Source: Sulfurovum indicum (GTDB lineage: Bacteria > Campylobacterota > Campylobacteria > Campylobacterales > Sulfurovaceae). From it: 64,000 nucleotides of DNA. The stretch lies in NCBI RefSeq assembly GCF_014931715.1, contig NZ_CP063164.1, positions 1,922,001 to 1,986,000 of the forward strand, in the 5' to 3' direction. A program made the position numbers and the translations under genes. Positions within the stretch are counted from its first letter, which is position 1, and every line of letters begins with the position of its first letter. The notes under the pieces are model-generated. The model made no database searches. It saw only the letters and a program-made list of their open reading frames with translations, and had not been told where the DNA came from. This document shows positions 44,008 to 51,673 of this stretch, piece by piece.

Positions 44008-44589
44008 TTAAACTTTTTTAGGGTTACGAATCGGTGTGCGTGCCAAAAGTTTTCCCCAAAGTTCACTTTCACTCCATTCCCTTCTTATCTGCTCTGAAAA
44101 AACAATATCTTCAAGATCGATCTTTCCCATTAGTTCACTATGTGCATCTTCTCTGAAGCCCTGTGCATATCCTGTATCGGTTTCATGTACAATTATACTG
44201 TGCAGTTTCACCTCTCTCTCTTCATTTTGCATCTGTGTACACTCCAGTACCCGTTCTACCATTAAATAGATCACACGCACAAACTGCTCAGCTGAAGGAG
44301 AAACCGGCAACTCCACCCAACGGTTACTGTGTGCCTTCATCGCTTCGATATAGGCAGGATCATCTTTGCTCCAAAGCGTAATACTGTGATCAAATGAGTC
44401 AATAAGCTCTTTCATATAAAGTTTGGTCAAACCAAAATCATAGACCATCTGTCCTGCATCAAGATAGTTCGACTCCAGTAATACTTCCACTTTATAGGAG
44501 TGCCCATGAATATTCTCACTGCAACGGCGGGTAGTACACCCCCTTACAATATGTGCATTTTCAAATTTAAAAAGTTTTCGTATTAACAT
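44008..44589 (-). CDS. queD: 6-carboxy-5,6,7,8-tetrahydropterin synthase
   Basis: QueD makes 6-carboxytetrahydropterin from dihydroneopterin triphosphate for queuosine. The 193-residue protein has the zinc histidines (FENAHIV and IHGHSY), the catalytic cysteine region CTTRRCSEN and DFGLTKLYMKELIDSFDH. The partner queE lies 7 kb away at 51838, with moaA next to it; in Campylobacter these genes are adjacent, so a block has been inserted here. Confidence 0.9.
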   Translation of the reverse strand: MLIRKLFKFENAHIVRGCTTRRCSENIHGHSYKVEVLLESNYLDAGQMVYDFGLTKLYMKELIDSFDHSITLWSKDDPAYIEAMKAHSNRWVELPVSPSAEQFVRVIYLMVERVLECTQMQNEEREVKLHSIIVHETDTGYAQGFREDAHSELMGKIDLEDIVFSEQIRREWSESELWGKLLARTPIRNPKKV

Positions 44590-44636: not shown

Positions 44637-45233
44637 TTAAGGTATGACCGGAGGAACGATCTCTTCCCCCAAAAATGCATAACTTTTACCAATACGGGCT
44701 ACCGGAGCAAAAGAGATGAGCAGTTTCTCCTTGTCCGTAATCACTTCATCCTTTACATAGATCTCTTTTACACTCAAAACAAGTGGGATGGTCGTCCCTC
44801 CTCCAAGGTCTATCTCCTGATTAAACTCACAAAAGTAGGATACCGGTGTACTGGCTATAACTGGTGGGAATTCCTCTTTCATATATACTGTCTCTATATC
44901 AAAGAATGCTGCTTCACTTTCATCATGTTCCAAACTTTTCGAGGATAGATGCATTTTTTCAAGATCCTTCTCTTCTACCATACAAATAGTACATTTTTGG
45001 TGCTTACGGATATTAAGCAAAGTATCTTTTGGTGTTCCGTCACTTTTATGTCCTACTGAGATGAGTACAGATGCCGGATCGGAAGAGAGCCCGATGAAGT
45101 AACTGAACGGTGCGATATTAACTACACCCTCGTCTTCCGTCACTACCCAGGCAATGGGTCTTGGTATAATGGTTTGAGCCATCAGTTTATAGGTCTCATT
45201 GACGCTTTTGTCATTGCTTAGATCAAATAACAT
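44637..45233 (-). CDS. Flavin reductase-like (FMN-binding split barrel) protein
   Basis: The 198-residue protein has the flavin reductase family pattern IIPRPIAWVVT, NIAPFSYFIGLSSDPASVLISVG and DTLLNIRKH. These proteins bind FMN and reduce it with NAD(P)H or act as FMN carriers. It overlaps the upstream diheme cytochrome gene by 11 bases. The role with that cytochrome is unknown. Confidence 0.83.
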   Translation of the reverse strand: MLFDLSNDKSVNETYKLMAQTIIPRPIAWVVTEDEGVVNIAPFSYFIGLSSDPASVLISVGHKSDGTPKDTLLNIRKHQKCTICMVEEKDLEKMHLSSKSLEHDESEAAFFDIETVYMKEEFPPVIASTPVSYFCEFNQEIDLGGGTTIPLVLSVKEIYVKDEVITDKEKLLISFAPVARIGKSYAFLGEEIVPPVIP

Positions 45234-45963
45234 TTTTGCTTCTCCATGGTTTTGGTGCTTCTATTTTACCCAAAGAGTCTATCCACTCTTTTAAAATGAT
45301 CAACTCTTCTTTTGAAAACTTGTCTTTGAATGCAGGCATCATCATATTGTTAAACTGCTTCCATTTTCCCTGACTTCCGTTTTGGATCACATCCATAATC
45401 TTTTCCGTGCTATTTTTTGCTATATTCCTGAAAGACGGACCTACCTTGTCTTTTTCTATAGCATGACAATTGAGACAACCATTGCTGCGTACCAGCTGCT
45501 CGCCTTTTGATAAAGCATCAAAAGCCGCTTTTGCCTGCATCTCTTTAAGGTACACCTGCTGATCGTAAAAAGTATACATATACTCAGCTATAACCTTAAG
45601 TTCCTCACTGCTTACATTTCCTTTTTGCGAAGGCATCACACCATAGGATTTGAGACTCTCTTCGTCACAATAGGATTTTTCCTTACTTGGATAGAGCACA
45701 TAATCTTGAATAAAAGGAATGAATTTATCCTCTTTATCCTTTAGATCTTTTATCTTCATAAACTCTTTTAAATGAAAGACTACTGCCATCATGGGAGGTG
45801 CACTCTCTTTCTCATATGTCTCAGGAGGCATATCTAGGTTATGGCAGAAAGCACATTTTTGTTCAAGTAACACAGCACCTGTCTCTAAAGTATGATTACC
45901 CTGAGAAGAGCAGCCTGTCAAGAAGATCAGTATCAGCCATATATACGTTTTTCTTGGACTCAT
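45223..45963 (-). CDS. Diheme c-type cytochrome lipoprotein
   Basis: The 246-residue product has a lipoprotein signal (LIFLTGCSS, lipid site Cys18), a first haem site CAFCH at 37-41 and a second CLNCH at 163-167 in a typical C-terminal cytochrome c domain with methionine in MMMPAFKD. It is probably anchored on the periplasmic side of a membrane. Its neighbours, an NFU protein and a flavin reductase-like protein, are also redox proteins. Confidence 0.85.
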   Translation of the reverse strand: MSPRKTYIWLILIFLTGCSSQGNHTLETGAVLLEQKCAFCHNLDMPPETYEKESAPPMMAVVFHLKEFMKIKDLKDKEDKFIPFIQDYVLYPSKEKSYCDEESLKSYGVMPSQKGNVSSEELKVIAEYMYTFYDQQVYLKEMQAKAAFDALSKGEQLVRSNGCLNCHAIEKDKVGPSFRNIAKNSTEKIMDVIQNGSQGKWKQFNNMMMPAFKDKFSKEELIILKEWIDSLGKIEAPKPWRSKNVI

Positions 45964-46314
45964 TTACCTGCCCTGAAAAAAAGACTTTATTTTCTCCAGA
46001 ACTCCTTCCTTCTCTTCTTCAGAAGCAAGCTCTTCTTTATAGAGATCCTCAGGTGGTATATTCTCTGGTGTTCCATCAACATTAACGACAATTAATTCAG
46101 GATGTATCAATTCTCTGAGTTTTTTCTGTACGACCATTTTTGTTGTCATAAGACTCATCGAACAGCCATGGCAGGCTCCGGTAAGTGCTATATAAACTCT
46201 TCCGTCTTTTACTCCTAAGAGTCTGATGGCACCCCCGTGGGACTGTACATATTCATTCACTGCCGGCAAATGATACTTTACTGCCTCATAGATATCTTTG
46301 TCTGAAAACTGCAT
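45964..46314 (-). CDS. NFU-domain iron-sulfur carrier protein
   Basis: The 116-residue protein is an NFU (NifU C-terminal) domain: HGGAIRLLGVKDGRVYIALTGACHGCSMS with the CxxC pair Cys48 and Cys51, which would hold a 4Fe-4S cluster between two chains for delivery to target enzymes. The last 30 residues are acidic and lysine-rich. It is the first gene of the group with the diheme cytochrome. Confidence 0.87.
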   Translation of the reverse strand: MQFSDKDIYEAVKYHLPAVNEYVQSHGGAIRLLGVKDGRVYIALTGACHGCSMSLMTTKMVVQKKLRELIHPELIVVNVDGTPENIPPEDLYKEELASEEEKEGVLEKIKSFFQGR

Positions 46315-46478: not shown

Positions 46479-46985
46479 TCAATCCTGAACAAATCGGTTA
46501 TCAGATCTTTTCTTTTTGATCTCTTCTGCACTTGAATGCATCCATCCGGAGCATACTTCCCCTTCCACTTTGTCAAAATGCTCAATATAGGGTTTAATAT
46601 CCAGTAGTGGAGTACCATCCAATATATCTATCCCTTTTACAGTAACAATATTCTTTTCTACCTTTATCAACTCCACTACTGAAAGACCTATGCTATTGGG
46701 GTGCATAGGTGTTCGGGTAGAGAATACCCCTCGTGGTGTATTTGTTTTATCATTAAAAGGAATCACACTCAACTGCGGCTTTTTAACCTTATGAAAATAG
46801 TAGATCAGATAAACATGACTAAAACCATCAAGGTCCCTGAGCCCCTCTTCATACTTATCATCAAACTCTATCGTAGCGTAAACATCACTGCCCCCTTTTG
46901 GCTGGACCGGCATATCAACCAAGTCACAAAACGGTGAATTGATAGTTGCGATCTGCTTCAGGGTAAACTGTATATCAGTGTCCAT
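46479..46985 (-). CDS. trmO: TrmO/TsaA (YaeB) family tRNA methyltransferase
   Basis: TrmO proteins methylate N6 of t6A37 in some tRNAs. The product (168 residues from this start) has the family pattern INSPF, SHVYLIYYFH, GVFSTRTPMHPNSIGLSVVEL and LLDIKPYI. An earlier ATG at 47015 has a possible AGGTG site but would add ten residues read from inside the NifX-like gene; the family alignment favours 46985. The gene is coupled to the NifX-like gene and probably under the same operator. Confidence 0.83.
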   Translation of the reverse strand: MDTDIQFTLKQIATINSPFCDLVDMPVQPKGGSDVYATIEFDDKYEEGLRDLDGFSHVYLIYYFHKVKKPQLSVIPFNDKTNTPRGVFSTRTPMHPNSIGLSVVELIKVEKNIVTVKGIDILDGTPLLDIKPYIEHFDKVEGEVCSGWMHSSAEEIKKKRSDNRFVQD

Positions 46986-47364
46986 CTGTATGACCATGTG
47001 AATGTTTTGTTTCATGGCGTGCGATCACCTCAGCCATATTGGTATCATTAATCATCTGCAGGGAATTTTGTTGAAACTTTTCAAGAACATCAGCAAGAAG
47101 AATTCTTTCATATCCTGCGTGAAACAGTGCCATATCTCCTGTATCTTTTATCTTTTCATACGGACTGAGACCCATTTCCTGAAAAATAACAATATTCACA
47201 CCTTCTTTTACCAACCATTCAACCACTGCTTTTCCTCCATGAGCAGGATTGGCTGTAATTTCTATCTGATTGTTTCTGATAAAGGCAAACCATTTTGCTT
47301 TACCGAATAGTGGTGCCAAAGGCGGGTTTTCTTTATTCATTTTTACAGGTATTGCTATTTTCAC
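46975..47364 (-). CDS. NifX/NafY-like (dinitrogenase iron-molybdenum cofactor family) protein
   Basis: The 129-residue product has the NifX-type fold pattern: AIPVKMN, PLAPLFGKAKWFAF, and VKEGVNIVIFQEMGLSPYEKIKD. It ends in a histidine-rich tail HSHGHTDGH that could bind metal. No nitrogenase genes are present, so it is one of the many family members with other metal-related roles. It is preceded by an operator-promoter nearly identical to that of the cytochrome bd operon. Confidence 0.8.
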   Translation of the reverse strand: MKIAIPVKMNKENPPLAPLFGKAKWFAFIRNNQIEITANPAHGGKAVVEWLVKEGVNIVIFQEMGLSPYEKIKDTGDMALFHAGYERILLADVLEKFQQNSLQMINDTNMAEVIARHETKHSHGHTDGH

Positions 47365-47387
47365 TTTTAAACCCTTTATACTTTATT

Positions 47388-47433
47388 TTGAACATATGAC
47401 TGAAATATAGCACTATTTCAAACATATGTCAAT
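47388..47433 (-). promoter_or_regulatory. Promoter-operator A of the NifX-like/trmO operon
   Basis: On the minus strand TTGACA (47427-47432), 17 bases and TATATT (47404-47409) make a good sigma-70 promoter. Two near-palindromic words, TTCAAACATATGTCAA over the -35 box and TTGAACATATGACTGAA (47388-47404) over and after the -10 box, look like repressor sites. The whole block is nearly identical to promoter-operator B at 48711. Confidence 0.75.
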
Positions 47434-47499
47434 ATAATCTTACATTTTTATATTCATAATAAGTAGTTATTTTATTATGAATATACACTGAAACAAATC

Positions 47500-48074
47500 T
47501 TGAATACAGTATTTGTGGTTTTACTTTTAAATATTGGTCACAAGCTTATGATACTTGAGTTTGTAGCTGTAGGAGCATACAGCAGCCTCTTTGTCGATGA
47601 AAATAAAGTCAAATTTCTCTTTGTACTCATGCCTTTTTACAGTGCATGCATGATGATATTTGGCAAAAAGAGACTGCGGACACACAGAAAAGAAAAAATG
47701 ATAGTGTACTTTATAGGCTAAGTGGTCAGTCACATCGCTGGTTTACTTGGAGCAGGAGAAAAAAATATTCTCATCCCTCTTCTTGTACTCTTAGGGTTTG
47801 TACCTAAAAAAGTTGCTGTCACTGTCAGTTTTGTCGTCCCCTTCTCCACCTTGGGGGTTTTTTTACCTATGCTACTTATGTTTCAATGGATTGGATACTG
47901 CTTTTAGTTATTGCACTTTGTAGCATTCCGGGAGGATACACTGGAAACTATCTTATACATTTTAAATTGGATCAAAAACAGATTAAAAAACTTATGTCAG
48001 TGATACTCTATCTGCTTGTACTGAAACTTCTATACCATTTTACAGCTTCTAGTATGATGTACAGAGTATCATAG
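47500..48074 (+). pseudogene. Degenerate TauE/SafE-family membrane transporter
   Basis: Three reading-frame pieces together match the C-terminal two thirds of a TauE/SafE anion exporter. The first (from TTG 47500) ends at an in-frame TAA (47719-47721). The second continues in the same frame with SHIAGLLGAGEKNILIPLLVLLGF, ending at 47907. The third, in another frame from about 47886, reads MDWILLLVIALCSIPGGYTGN. The N-terminal half seems missing. At least one stop and one frameshift make it a likely pseudogene, unless sequencing errors are involved. Confidence 0.75.
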
Positions 48075-48084
48075 CCCATTATAC

Positions 48085-48678
48085 TCAGGTTAATACATCT
48101 ATATGAACGAGATCATCCTTGGTTAACTTCTTTTTGATGATCGTATAGATACCTTTCGAGAGCAAAGCACTCTTTAAACCTGCACCAATCGCAGTAGCTG
48201 CAAAAAAATTCACCTTTTTACGGTTACACAGCTCTGGTAACGCCTGTCCTGGTCGCCTGCCTTCTACAAAAACAGGATTCTCCAAAGTTTCTATTTCAAC
48301 AATCTTATGTTGTTTGACATGACAGAGCATCAAAAAAGGTGCATCCGGCTTGCCCAGTACCAGTGCATTCCTTTTCATACTTGCCACCAATACTATATAA
48401 TCCTCTTTTTCATCTTCGATCACAAGATTGGCTCCGGTAATAAGCATCATACTTACCTTCTCTCTGGCATTTTTAATAATACGTGCGAAGGTTGAACGGG
48501 AGACTCCCATTTGCACTGCAGCATCTGCCTGATAAAGTCCCTGGTTGTCCATCAGGTAGAGTGCCTCGATCTCTTCATGAAGCAGATGGAGTGTATCTTT
48601 ACTTTTACACTCTATTGAGCCGAACTCTCTGCATACGGGTTTAAACTGTAAATTTCTTTTTAATTTGTCACGTCCCAT
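48085..48678 (-). CDS. DUF134 family DNA-binding regulator with NifX-like C-terminal domain
   Basis: The 197-residue product (ATG 48678, MGRDKLKRNLQFKPVCREF) has the DUF134 helix-turn-helix (LYQADAAVQMGVSRSTFARIIKNAR, about 60-90, quoted in part) and a C-terminal NifX-like domain (about 100-185). The family is annotated as predicted DNA-binding. It is divergent from the cytochrome bd operon, beside operator B, and the NifX-like gene stands behind operator A. It is therefore the best candidate for the repressor of both, which is inference. Confidence 0.8.
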   Translation of the reverse strand: MGRDKLKRNLQFKPVCREFGSIECKSKDTLHLLHEEIEALYLMDNQGLYQADAAVQMGVSRSTFARIIKNAREKVSMMLITGANLVIEDEKEDYIVLVASMKRNALVLGKPDAPFLMLCHVKQHKIVEIETLENPVFVEGRRPGQALPELCNRKKVNFFAATAIGAGLKSALLSKGIYTIIKKKLTKDDLVHIDVLT

Positions 48679-48710
48679 AGAAGAAGTATAGCATACTGGA
48701 ACTAAAATAC

Positions 48711-48757
48711 TTGACATATGTTCAAAATAGTGCTATATTTCCGCCAAATGTCCAAAA
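48711..48757 (+). promoter_or_regulatory. Promoter-operator B of the cytochrome bd operon
   Basis: TTGACA (48711-48716), 17 bases and TATATT (48734-48739) precede the operon by about 55 bases. The -35 region overlaps the near-palindrome TTGACATATGTTCAA (48711-48725), and a weaker related word (CCAAATGTCCAAA) follows the -10 box. About 45 of 55 positions match the inverted copy A at 47388-47433 and its flanks. Confidence 0.75.
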
Positions 48758-48795: not shown

Positions 48796-49014
48796 GTGAA
48801 TTTACTAAAAACAATCTATCTTTTCTACTACGAAGGGTTTAAAAGTATGAAGGTCGGCAAAAAACTCTGGCTTCTGATCGGTATCAAACTTTTCATACTC
48901 TTTGCTGTGCTCAAGTGGTTCTTCTTTCCCAATGTTTTAAAAACAGAGTTTGAAACAGACACCCAGCGTAGCGAGTACATTTTGGAACATCTTACACAAG
49001 ACAAGGAGAAATAA
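48796..49014 (+). CDS. DUF4492 membrane protein upstream of cydA
   Basis: The 72-residue product has a single membrane helix (about 25-45) after a short aromatic, basic N-terminus, and an acidic tail. It fits DUF4492, a family found before cydA in Campylobacterota and Bacteroidota. The start is GTG with AAGGA upstream. It ends directly before the cydA ATG, so it is probably an accessory or assembly subunit of the oxidase. Confidence 0.82.
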   Translation: MNLLKTIYLFYYEGFKSMKVGKKLWLLIGIKLFILFAVLKWFFFPNVLKTEFETDTQRSEYILEHLTQDKEK

Positions 49015-50544
49015 ATGGAACATACAGACCTGCTCGTAGACTGGTCACGGGCTCAATTTGCACTGACTGCTCTGTATCACTGGCTTTTCGTACCGTTGAC
49101 ACTGGGCTTGACCTTCATTGTAGCTATAATGGAAACTATTTATGTCAAGACCGGTGATATATGGTGGAAAAAAACAACAAAATTCTGGATGACCCTGCTG
49201 GCGATCAACTTTGCCATCGGTCTTGCTACAGGGATCATTATGGAGTTTGAGTTTGGTACTAACTGGTCAAATTACTCATGGATCGTAGGAGACATCTTCG
49301 GAGCACCACTTGCCATAGAAGGACTAATGGCATTTTTTATGGAGTCAACCTTCTTTGCAGTGATGTTCTTCGGATGGGACAAGGTCAGTAAAAAGATGCA
49401 CCTGCTCTCTACCTGGCTTGTTGCCATCGGTTCTAATCTCTCAGCACTCTGGATACTTGTTGCAAACGGATGGATGCAGCATCCAGTAGGTATGAGGTTC
49501 AATCCCGATACTGCCCGTAACGAGATGGAGAACTTCTGGGAACTCTTCTTTAACCCAAATGCCGTAAGCAAATTCCTCCACACCATCAGCAGTGGCTATG
49601 TTCTTGCCTCCCTGTTTGTAATCGGTATCAGTGCATGGTATCTCCTCAAAAAACGTGAAGTTCTGTTTGCCAAACGCAGCATGATCGTTGCTGCATCATT
49701 TGGACTGATCACATCACTTTTTCTTCTTACTACCGGAGATGAGTCCGCATTTGAGGTGGCACAGAACCAACCCATGAAACTCGCAGCCATGGAAGGACTC
49801 TACAAAGGTGAAGAGCGTGCAGGGATCGTAGCTATCGGGCTGCTTAATCATGAGAAATCTATAGGTGACGAGCAGGAAGCATTCAAATTTAAACTAGAGA
49901 TACCCAATGCACTTTCATTTCTCGGCTACCATTCACTCAATGCCTATGTACCAGGTATTGAGGATCTTGTTCTTGGAAACGAAGAACACAAGATCATGAG
50001 CGTCAAAGAGAAAATGCAAAAAGGAAAGATCGCTGTTGAAGCACTTAAGAACTATAAAACCTACAAAAAAGAGAATGATACTGCTAAAGCCCAGGAAGTA
50101 CTTGAAATCTTCAGGGCACATGAAAAATACCTGGGGTATGGATATCTTAAAGATCCATTAGATGCCGTACCGAATGTGGCATTGACATTTTACAGTTTTC
50201 ATACGATGGTAGGATTGGGAACATGGTTCCTCATACTCTTTGTTCTTATACTCTATTTTACAATGATCAATGAGATAGAGAAGAGACGTTGGGTACTCTA
50301 TGCAGCACTTTGGACGATTCCTCTTGCATATGTTGCACAGGAAGCGGGGTGGATCGTTGCCGAAGCAGGCAGACAGCCGTGGGCAATCCAGGATCTGCTT
50401 CCGGTAGGTATGGCCGCATCCAATATTGCTTCTAGTTCCGTACAGATAACTTTCTGGCTCTTTGCCGTACTCTTTACCGGATTACTCATTGCCGAAGTGA
50501 AGATCATGCTCACACAAATAAAAAACGGACCGGAGGAACACTAA
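49015..50544 (+). CDS. cydA: Cytochrome bd quinol oxidase subunit I
   Basis: CydA carries the three haems and the quinol site of the high-affinity bd oxidase. In the 509-residue protein the haem-ligand His lies in LYHWLFVPL (about residue 21), GWMQHPVG, QPMKLAAMEGLYKG marks the Q-loop side and GRQPW the conserved C-terminal loop. The Q-loop is intermediate in length. It consumes low oxygen without pumping protons, complementing the bc1 branch and denitrification enzymes here. Confidence 0.95.
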   Translation: MEHTDLLVDWSRAQFALTALYHWLFVPLTLGLTFIVAIMETIYVKTGDIWWKKTTKFWMTLLAINFAIGLATGIIMEFEFGTNWSNYSWIVGDIFGAPLAIEGLMAFFMESTFFAVMFFGWDKVSKKMHLLSTWLVAIGSNLSALWILVANGWMQHPVGMRFNPDTARNEMENFWELFFNPNAVSKFLHTISSGYVLASLFVIGISAWYLLKKREVLFAKRSMIVAASFGLITSLFLLTTGDESAFEVAQNQPMKLAAMEGLYKGEERAGIVAIGLLNHEKSIGDEQEAFKFKLEIPNALSFLGYHSLNAYVPGIEDLVLGNEEHKIMSVKEKMQKGKIAVEALKNYKTYKKENDTAKAQEVLEIFRAHEKYLGYGYLKDPLDAVPNVALTFYSFHTMVGLGTWFLILFVLILYFTMINEIEKRRWVLYAALWTIPLAYVAQEAGWIVAEAGRQPWAIQDLLPVGMAASNIASSSVQITFWLFAVLFTGLLIAEVKIMLTQIKNGPEEH

Positions 50545-50545
50545 A

Positions 50546-51673
50546 ATGGATACATTTTCACTCTATACCCTACAGACATACTGGTGGTTGCTGGTAAGTA
50601 TTATCGGTGCACTCTTTGTCTTTATGACATTCGTGCAAGGCGGACAGACACTACTCTATACTCTGGGGAAAACAGAAGATGAACGCGACCTCGTCATCAA
50701 TTCCCTCGGACGTAAATGGGAACTTACATTCACCTCTTTAGTTATGTTCGGAGGTGCACTCTTTGCCGCATTCCCGCTCTTTTATGCAGTCAGTTTCGGT
50801 GGTGCCTACTATGTCTGGATGGCGATCCTGTTCTGTTTTATCATTCAGGCTGTCTCCTATGAGTACCGTAAAAAACCTGACAACTTTTTCGGAAATCGTT
50901 TTTATGAGATCATGCTTTTTATCAATGGATCACTTGGTATCTTTCTCATCGGTGTTGCTCTGGGGACTCTCTATACCGGAGGTCATTTCATTGTCAATGA
51001 GATGCATCTGTCACACTGGACAAAAGCAACCTATGGTCTTGAAGCACTGCTTGATCCTTTCAACGTGGCATTTGGGCTCATGCTGTTTTTCCTCTCTCGT
51101 ATTTTAGGAGCGCTCTATCTCTACAACAATATTGTACATAAAGAAATAGCACAAAGAATACTCAAAGCCCTAAAAAGAAATACTCTGCTCTTTCTGCCGA
51201 TCTTTCTTTATGTAACAGGCAGTATGCTTCTGCAGACAGGATATAGCTATGATCCAAACACCAAGGTCGTATCGACAGAGAGTATGAAACTTCTTCACAA
51301 TATCCTTGCCTATCCGATATTGGGTATTGTCTTTGCAGCAGGTGTGGTATCTCTGCTTTATGGTATATATACTGCACTGTTCACCTCCAACAGAAAAGCG
51401 ATCTGGTTTGTCGGCACAGGTACAGTCTTGACAGTCACAACACTACTTTTTGTTTTAGGAATCAACCATACCGTCTATTATCCTTCTCTGGCAGACCTGC
51501 AAAGTTCACTGACCATTGAGAACAGTTCAGGAAGTCACTATACACTCTTTGTAATGAGTATTGTTTCACTTTTGGTGCCATTGGTCCTTGGATATATCTT
51601 TGCTGTATGGCGATCTATGGACAGAACAAAACTCACGATCGAAGAAGTCAAATCAGACTCACATCACTACTAA
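50546..51673 (+). CDS. cydB: Cytochrome bd quinol oxidase subunit II
   Basis: The 375-residue, eight-to-nine-helix protein matches CydB: TYWWLLVSIIGALFVFMTFVQGGQTL at the start (in part), the KWELTFTSLVMFGGALFAAFPLFY region and late helices. GAGGAAC precedes its ATG, one base after the cydA stop. Confidence 0.93.
   Translation: MDTFSLYTLQTYWWLLVSIIGALFVFMTFVQGGQTLLYTLGKTEDERDLVINSLGRKWELTFTSLVMFGGALFAAFPLFYAVSFGGAYYVWMAILFCFIIQAVSYEYRKKPDNFFGNRFYEIMLFINGSLGIFLIGVALGTLYTGGHFIVNEMHLSHWTKATYGLEALLDPFNVAFGLMLFFLSRILGALYLYNNIVHKEIAQRILKALKRNTLLFLPIFLYVTGSMLLQTGYSYDPNTKVVSTESMKLLHNILAYPILGIVFAAGVVSLLYGIYTALFTSNRKAIWFVGTGTVLTVTTLLFVLGINHTVYYPSLADLQSSLTIENSSGSHYTLFVMSIVSLLVPLVLGYIFAVWRSMDRTKLTIEEVKSDSHHY

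Follow-up and report, generated by a model that had tools for sequence, protein, structure and literature searches.

A DUF134 protein with a probable NifX-like domain as candidate regulator of cytochrome bd and NifX-like genes in Sulfurovum indicum

Two near-identical promoter-operator blocks

Which regulator reads two nearly duplicated promoters that head a cytochrome bd operon and an operon of NifX-like and tRNA-modification genes in Sulfurovum indicum? The initial annotation of this locus had inferred a common repressor from the likeness of the two blocks, and had named as its candidate the DUF134 protein encoded beside one of them. The locus lies in a 64-kb stretch of DNA, here called the window, and its features are listed in Table 1.

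Read directly, the promoter of block A (minus strand, 47432-47402) is TTGACATATGTTTGAAATAGTGCTATATTTC and that of block B (plus strand, 48711-48741) is TTGACATATGTTCAAAATAGTGCTATATTTC. Compared in inverted orientation, the blocks are identical at 29 of the 31 promoter positions (two differences), and both carry a sigma-70 promoter with TTGACA, a 17-base spacer, TATATT, and an extended -10 element (TGC-TATATT), much as first described. The CATATG-centered near-palindromes reported to overlap the promoter elements were also found, two per block at a spacing of 30 bp, with the distal site of block B degraded to CAAATG. A pattern scan of the window returned two matches, blocks A and B, where none was expected from 100 dinucleotide shuffles, and a scan of the whole genome (2.21 Mb, up to three mismatches) again returned only these blocks, against none in the control. 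The genome scan for the palindrome that had been suggested as a check has now been run for the single site, and the exact sequence CATATGTTCAAAATA is confined to the two blocks.

Behind block A come, in this order, genes for a NifX/ORP-like protein, TrmO, a NifU/Nfu-like protein, a cytochrome c, a flavin reductase, and a QueD-like protein. Block B reads into DUF4492-cydA-cydB, with the DUF134 gene (DUF134X) divergent from it. The NifX/ORP-like protein (46975-47364) is similar to the solved structures 1rdu, 1t3v, 1o13, and 1eo1 and is a relative of MTH1175; it also weakly matches the ORP portion of MrpORP, a protein of Fe-S biogenesis (PMC6345978). Between the two blocks lies a decayed TauE gene that the initial annotation did not mention. 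An intact TauE gene is found near DUF134X in genomes G373 and G390, the latter with a rhodanese as well.

Table 1. Coordinates of the promoter-operator blocks and surrounding genes in the window
Feature	Coordinates	Strand	Evidence or remarks
QueD-like 6-pyruvoyl tetrahydropterin synthase	44008..44589	-	PF01242
Flavin reductase-like protein	44637..45233	-	PF01613
c-type cytochrome	45223..45963	-	PF13442
NifU/Nfu C-terminal-domain protein	45964..46314	-	PF01106
trmO	46479..47015	-	TIGR00104, 130 bits, cut-off 93 (NCBIfam equivalog); PF01980
NifX/ORP-like small protein, first gene behind block A	46975..47364	-	PF02579, 36.2 bits, cut-off 26.3
Block A second operator	47385..47401	-	CATATG 47398-47393, 30 bp from first
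Block A promoter-operator, NifX-like operon	47402..47432	-	TTGACA 47432-47427, TATATT 47409-47404, first operator CATATG 47428-47423
Decayed TauE/SafE gene, divergent from block A	47548..48041	+	Frameshift, N-terminus lost; 63% identity, in two frames, to intact TauE of locus L074
DUF134X: DUF134 (UPF0251) HTH protein, NifX-like C-terminal domain (weakly supported)	48085..48678	-	PF02001, 47.4 bits, cut-off 27
DUF134X -10 (TATACT, extended TGC)	48685..48690	-	6 nt from ATG; block B first operator over -35 side
Block B promoter-operator, DUF4492-cydAB	48711..48741	+	TTGACA 48711-48716, TATATT 48734-48739, first operator CATATG 48715-48720
Block B second operator, degraded	48742..48757	+	CAAATG 48745-48750
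DUF4492 small membrane protein, cyd operon gene 1	48796..49014	+	PF14899
cydA	49015..50544	+	PF01654
cydB	50546..51673	+	PF02322

DUF134X carries a second, probably NifX-like domain

The Pfam score places DUF134X in PF02001, and alignments show that it has the conserved SR-x-TF-x-R helix; orthologs were found across the Sulfurovaceae and in other families of the order. A structure was modeled from the window protein together with sequences from related loci, with a poor result for the C-terminal half. The helix-turn-helix (HTH) of the model superposed on the DNA-binding domain of DNA-bound DeoR at 0.8 Å over 39 residues and also matched the solved sigma region 4. No ArsR match was seen among the Pfam matches. 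Full-length Foldseek ranks (PhyR, integrases) were discarded as chance joins, and only the short HTH matches were used.

The protein does not end with the HTH but continues into a second domain that had been missed before. Ten of 28 orthologs matched PF02579 (NifX), with a best E value of 6.7e-7, although the window member itself did not. Compared with its NifX neighbors by hhalign, the C terminus gave an E value of 3e-4 and a probability of 39%, and there were weak fold matches to NafY and PH0822 in a region where the confidence of the model is low. We consider with moderate confidence that the C-terminal domain is NifX-like, the support being weak for the window member. DUF134X also has the CATATG palindrome in its own promoter, since block B stands between it and cyd. 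The distance from its -10 element to the ATG is 5 to 7 nt in 17 of 17 orthologs, so the mRNA is probably leaderless.

The operator accompanies DUF134

Upstream of DUF134X orthologs, the tandem operator takes the form GACATATG-N13-TATAWT-N5-CATATG; the TG of the extended -10 is conserved as well, although the search pattern did not ask for it. The exact form occurred in 18 of about 440 genomes scanned (14 of the same family and 4 from the sample of the order), in all 18 on the contig that bears the DUF134X gene. We then looked for CATATG up to 250 bp from the start of the operon at 55 cydA loci of the family. It was found in 21 of 30 genomes with DUF134 but in only 2 of the 25 that lack the gene (Fisher P = 2.5e-6, an optimistic value because the genomes are related and not independent), and the two DUF134-free cases are isolated words whose flanks are absent. 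The most informative genomes are those in which the cyd operon keeps CATATG without an adjacent DUF134 (G370, G349, G041, G290, G421, and G429, across a run of N). Among the nine DUF134-bearing genomes that lack it, the site lies farther upstream of cyd, before DUF134, in G375, and elsewhere in a long intergenic region with a divergent DUF134 in G353, G358, G398, and G399. The other four (G374, G427, G439, and G303) have DUF134 and no site at cyd, so this operon is not always a DUF134 target.

Several related arrangements were noted along the way. The architecture is different in a divergent DUF134-NifX subclass (L084 to L088), where TTTACATATGTAAA-type sites, separated by about 110 bp, occupy a long intergenic region that precedes cyd. 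In another genus (L064 to L067), DUF134X is divergent from a 68-amino-acid membrane protein of an unplaced family (MKLTDEPTLNTIDDYNNQE...) and has the same tandem operator; hemerythrin and DUF2249 genes are nearby in L065 and a haem-copper oxidase in L067. The L065 neighbors hint at nitrosative or Fe-S stress, which we take only as a lead. Look-alikes of the operator also exist: in genome G141 (locus L121, 1501-2199), GACATATGAACAATTGTTCATTATAAT stands before a TetR-like gene, with a methyltransferase-like gene next in line, and similar sites recur in several genomes of the Sulfurovaceae.

Outside Campylobacterota, we searched the 200 bp upstream of 80 DUF134 genes. CATATG was present in 60 of them and GCATATGC in 51, compared with 15 and 5 of 453 control genes from the same loci and with 3.9 and 0.2 in shuffles; the next most common palindromic 6-mer reached 23 of 80. 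The full operator in these phyla reads TTAT(T/G)AGCATATGCTNATAA. Several exceptions are genes in which DUF134 comes later in the operon, behind a NifX, MinD-type, or trmO-like gene, as in L186 and L189, where the site is found further upstream near the operon head. Of 30 short (non-fused) DUF134 genes from Campylobacterota, nearly all have a promoter overlain by a ACATATGT-type palindrome, which reads TTGAACATATGTTCAA or TGCACATATGTGCA. In non-fused DUF134 genes, the palindrome usually occupies the spacer of a near-consensus promoter, its center 5 bp before the -10 element (30 of 51 promoter matches). The fused version has one site across the -35 element and the other after the -10.

Covariation of the recognition helix and the operator

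For 94 clear cases, divided by the base flanking the operator core, the most informative alignment column was residue 67, within the recognition helix (SRxTFxR). Proteins with Gly67 were found only with G-flanked GCATATGC operators (48/48) and those with Ser or Thr67 only with A-flanked ACATATGT operators (33/33), while Ala67, the residue of the window DUF134X, does not discriminate (3 G-flanked and 10 A-flanked). Outside Campylobacterota, the A-flanked operators belong to L195/L201 and L222/L226, all with Ser or Thr67, and in a tree built without the helix columns these form two separate pairs among relatives with Gly67 or Ala67. Such covariation is what direct recognition by DUF134 predicts. 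Two spirochaete-type DUF134-NifX fusions (L168 and L178) have TCATATGA-centered sites despite Gly67, so other residues must also set the flank.

The partnership of NifX, cytochrome bd, and trmO

The link between a bd oxidase and a NifX-like gene, put forward in the initial annotation as a coupling unfamiliar from the literature, is supported by relatives in which both share an operon. The order is DUF134-NifX-DUF4492-cydAB in L298, L306, L307, and L316; NifX-DUF4492-cydAB in L277, L286, L300, and L304; and DUF4492-cydAB-NifX in other genera and families (L081, L098, L099, and L102). The presence of NifX inside the cyd operon of several relatives marks the partnership as an old one, and the split layout of the window with its two similar operators keeps this gene set together. 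Elsewhere, a NifX-like gene is fused to DUF134 or within 1.5 kb of it in at least 45 of the 80 loci of other phyla. A proteobacterial MAG (L173) has cydAB directly upstream of DUF134; with the GCATATGC site lying after cydB and before DUF134, cyd is no evident target there.

The tRNA-modification part of the proposed link fared less well. The trmO gene does recur, in 7 of the 80 DUF134 loci of other phyla and in a single trmO-NifX-DUF4492-cydAB operon (L309, genome G346, which has neither a DUF134 match nor the operator), but it is absent from most homologous operons, and we regard it, on this weaker evidence, as a minor but recurrent partner. In G390, an operator two mismatches off the pattern heads DUF1858-DUF2249, PEMT, MFS, NifU, flavin reductase, and QueD genes, with rhodanese-TauE divergent from it; the broken TauE of the window is at the matching place.

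Proposed mechanism and alternative explanations

We consider it probable, at roughly four chances in five and without binding, expression, or mutant data, that DUF134X reads both blocks as the negatively autoregulated regulator of a two-operon regulon and is released through its NifX-like domain. In this mechanism, the sigma-region-4/DeoR-like HTH would bind the CATATG-centered palindromes (ideal half TTGAACAT), with a dimer at each of the two sites, which at 30 bp, or about three turns, would fall on one face of the DNA. At both the NifX operon and DUF4492-cydAB, the dimers would lie over the -35 and the -10/start, and DUF134X would block its own divergent, leaderless promoter at the -35 side, resulting in negative autoregulation. 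Both the dimers and the bridging of the two sites are inferred. A change in the NifX-like domain, by analogy with the cofactor-carrier proteins of this fold, would release the DNA, and the bd oxidase and the genes handling Fe-S or metal clusters would be made together. As for the ligand, an Fe-S cluster, a metal, sulfide, or NO are guesses.

Comparison of the genomes shows, at the level of sequence, the conservation of the operator, its dependence on DUF134, its covariation with the helix, and the linkage of the operons. The claim of a common repressor thus divides: an operator shared by the two blocks and read by DUF134 is strongly supported by co-occurrence, by the CATATG sites of many phyla, and by covariation, which together make the DUF134 protein very likely the regulator, and repression itself is inferred from the position of the sites only. 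These positions argue for repression and autoregulation, although no binding has been measured, and repression is favored because good promoter elements have their access blocked. The main competing possibility, which we judge unlikely but would not dismiss, is that DUF134X binds both blocks and activates or remodels transcription. The short DUF134 sites do fill the -35/-10 spacer like MerR activator sites, and expression data are absent. MerR-type promoters, however, have spacers of 19 to 20 bp, and those found here have the optimal 17 bp, which disfavors a MerR-like mode. Besides, the -35 and -10 elements are near consensus and need no activator, the tandem sites cover the -35 and the start, and most DUF134 self-promoters carry the site, as is typical of negative autoregulation.

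It is considerably harder to maintain that the blocks belong to another regulator (ArsR, TetR, or Crp/Fnr type) with a similar operator, DUF134 being a bystander. TGAACA-type palindromes do serve other families, and a look-alike with two mismatches precedes the TetR-like gene of G141, which has no DUF134; but the motif tracks DUF134 across phyla and covaries with the recognition helix of this protein, and genomes without DUF134 lack it at their cyd promoters. Ownership of the operator by ArsR or TetR was rejected. Least credible of all is a recent duplication kept by chance, with one copy functionless, which had been named as a finding that would refute the shared operator. The near identity of the blocks and the degraded distal site of block B would fit it, but intact counterparts of the NifX-side block stand at the same gene in G373, G362, G396, and G423, and pairs of blocks from one genome, at 2 to 7 differences in 38, show no clear excess of similarity over pairs from different genomes (mean, 7.6). 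Concerted evolution of blocks A and B is likewise unsupported by these differences.

Beyond regulation of the two operons by DUF134X, a broader idea is that the widespread DUF134/UPF0251 family senses the status of metal-sulfur cofactors, and that in DUF134X the NifX-like domain either binds the cofactor itself or is loaded by the co-regulated NifX. We hold this as a speculation that is more likely wrong than right; if true, the choice of terminal oxidase in Campylobacterota would depend on a cofactor-carrier domain that serves as a gene switch.

Significance and comparison with known systems

In the open-access literature searched, we found no operator, regulon, or mutant described for DUF134/UPF0251/COG1342, an absence that is no proof, and in a review of Campylobacterota respiration, cyd appeared in the reference list only. 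The autoregulated HTH repressor is a known class of mechanism; the function of the DUF134 family, its operator code, and the bd/NifX regulon appear to be new. A widespread domain of unknown function would thereby gain a precise, testable job as a DNA-binding protein that regulates its own gene at a defined operator, and the readable code (Gly67 with GCATATGC, Ser/Thr67 with ACATATGT) would make DUF134 regulons predictable from sequence. For Campylobacterota, it provides a candidate regulator of cytochrome bd and ties the choice of oxidase to NifX/ORP-like and Nfu-like cofactor genes. Whether the signal sensed is cluster damage, sulfide, NO, or a metal becomes a testable question.

DUF134X shares with the predicted DNA-binding proteins of DUF134/UPF0251/COG1342 (PF02001) the HTH region and a NifX-like gene neighborhood, and differs from plain DUF134 in its probable NifX-like fusion, its tandem operators, and the putative control of cytochrome bd. 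The HTH fold is very similar to that of Bacillus subtilis DeoR and SorC-type repressors (PDB 7bhy and 8r7y), which also act at palindromic operators overlapping promoters. Unlike them, DUF134X has no sugar-binding effector domain but a probable NifX-like one in its place, and the operator differs. ArsR/SmtB operators are TGAACA-TGTTCA-like inverted repeats over promoters, and blocks A and B resemble them in this respect; DUF134X, however, lacks the ArsR-type HTH, and the CATATG core tracks DUF134. Finally, the NifX/NafY and ORP/MTH1175 family, with MrpORP (PMC6345978), gives the fold and family of the co-regulated PF02579 protein and, weakly, of the DUF134X C terminus. Its known members are cofactor or Fe-S carriers in nitrogenase and Fe-S assembly, whereas in the present case one probable member is joined to an HTH and others belong to respiratory operons.
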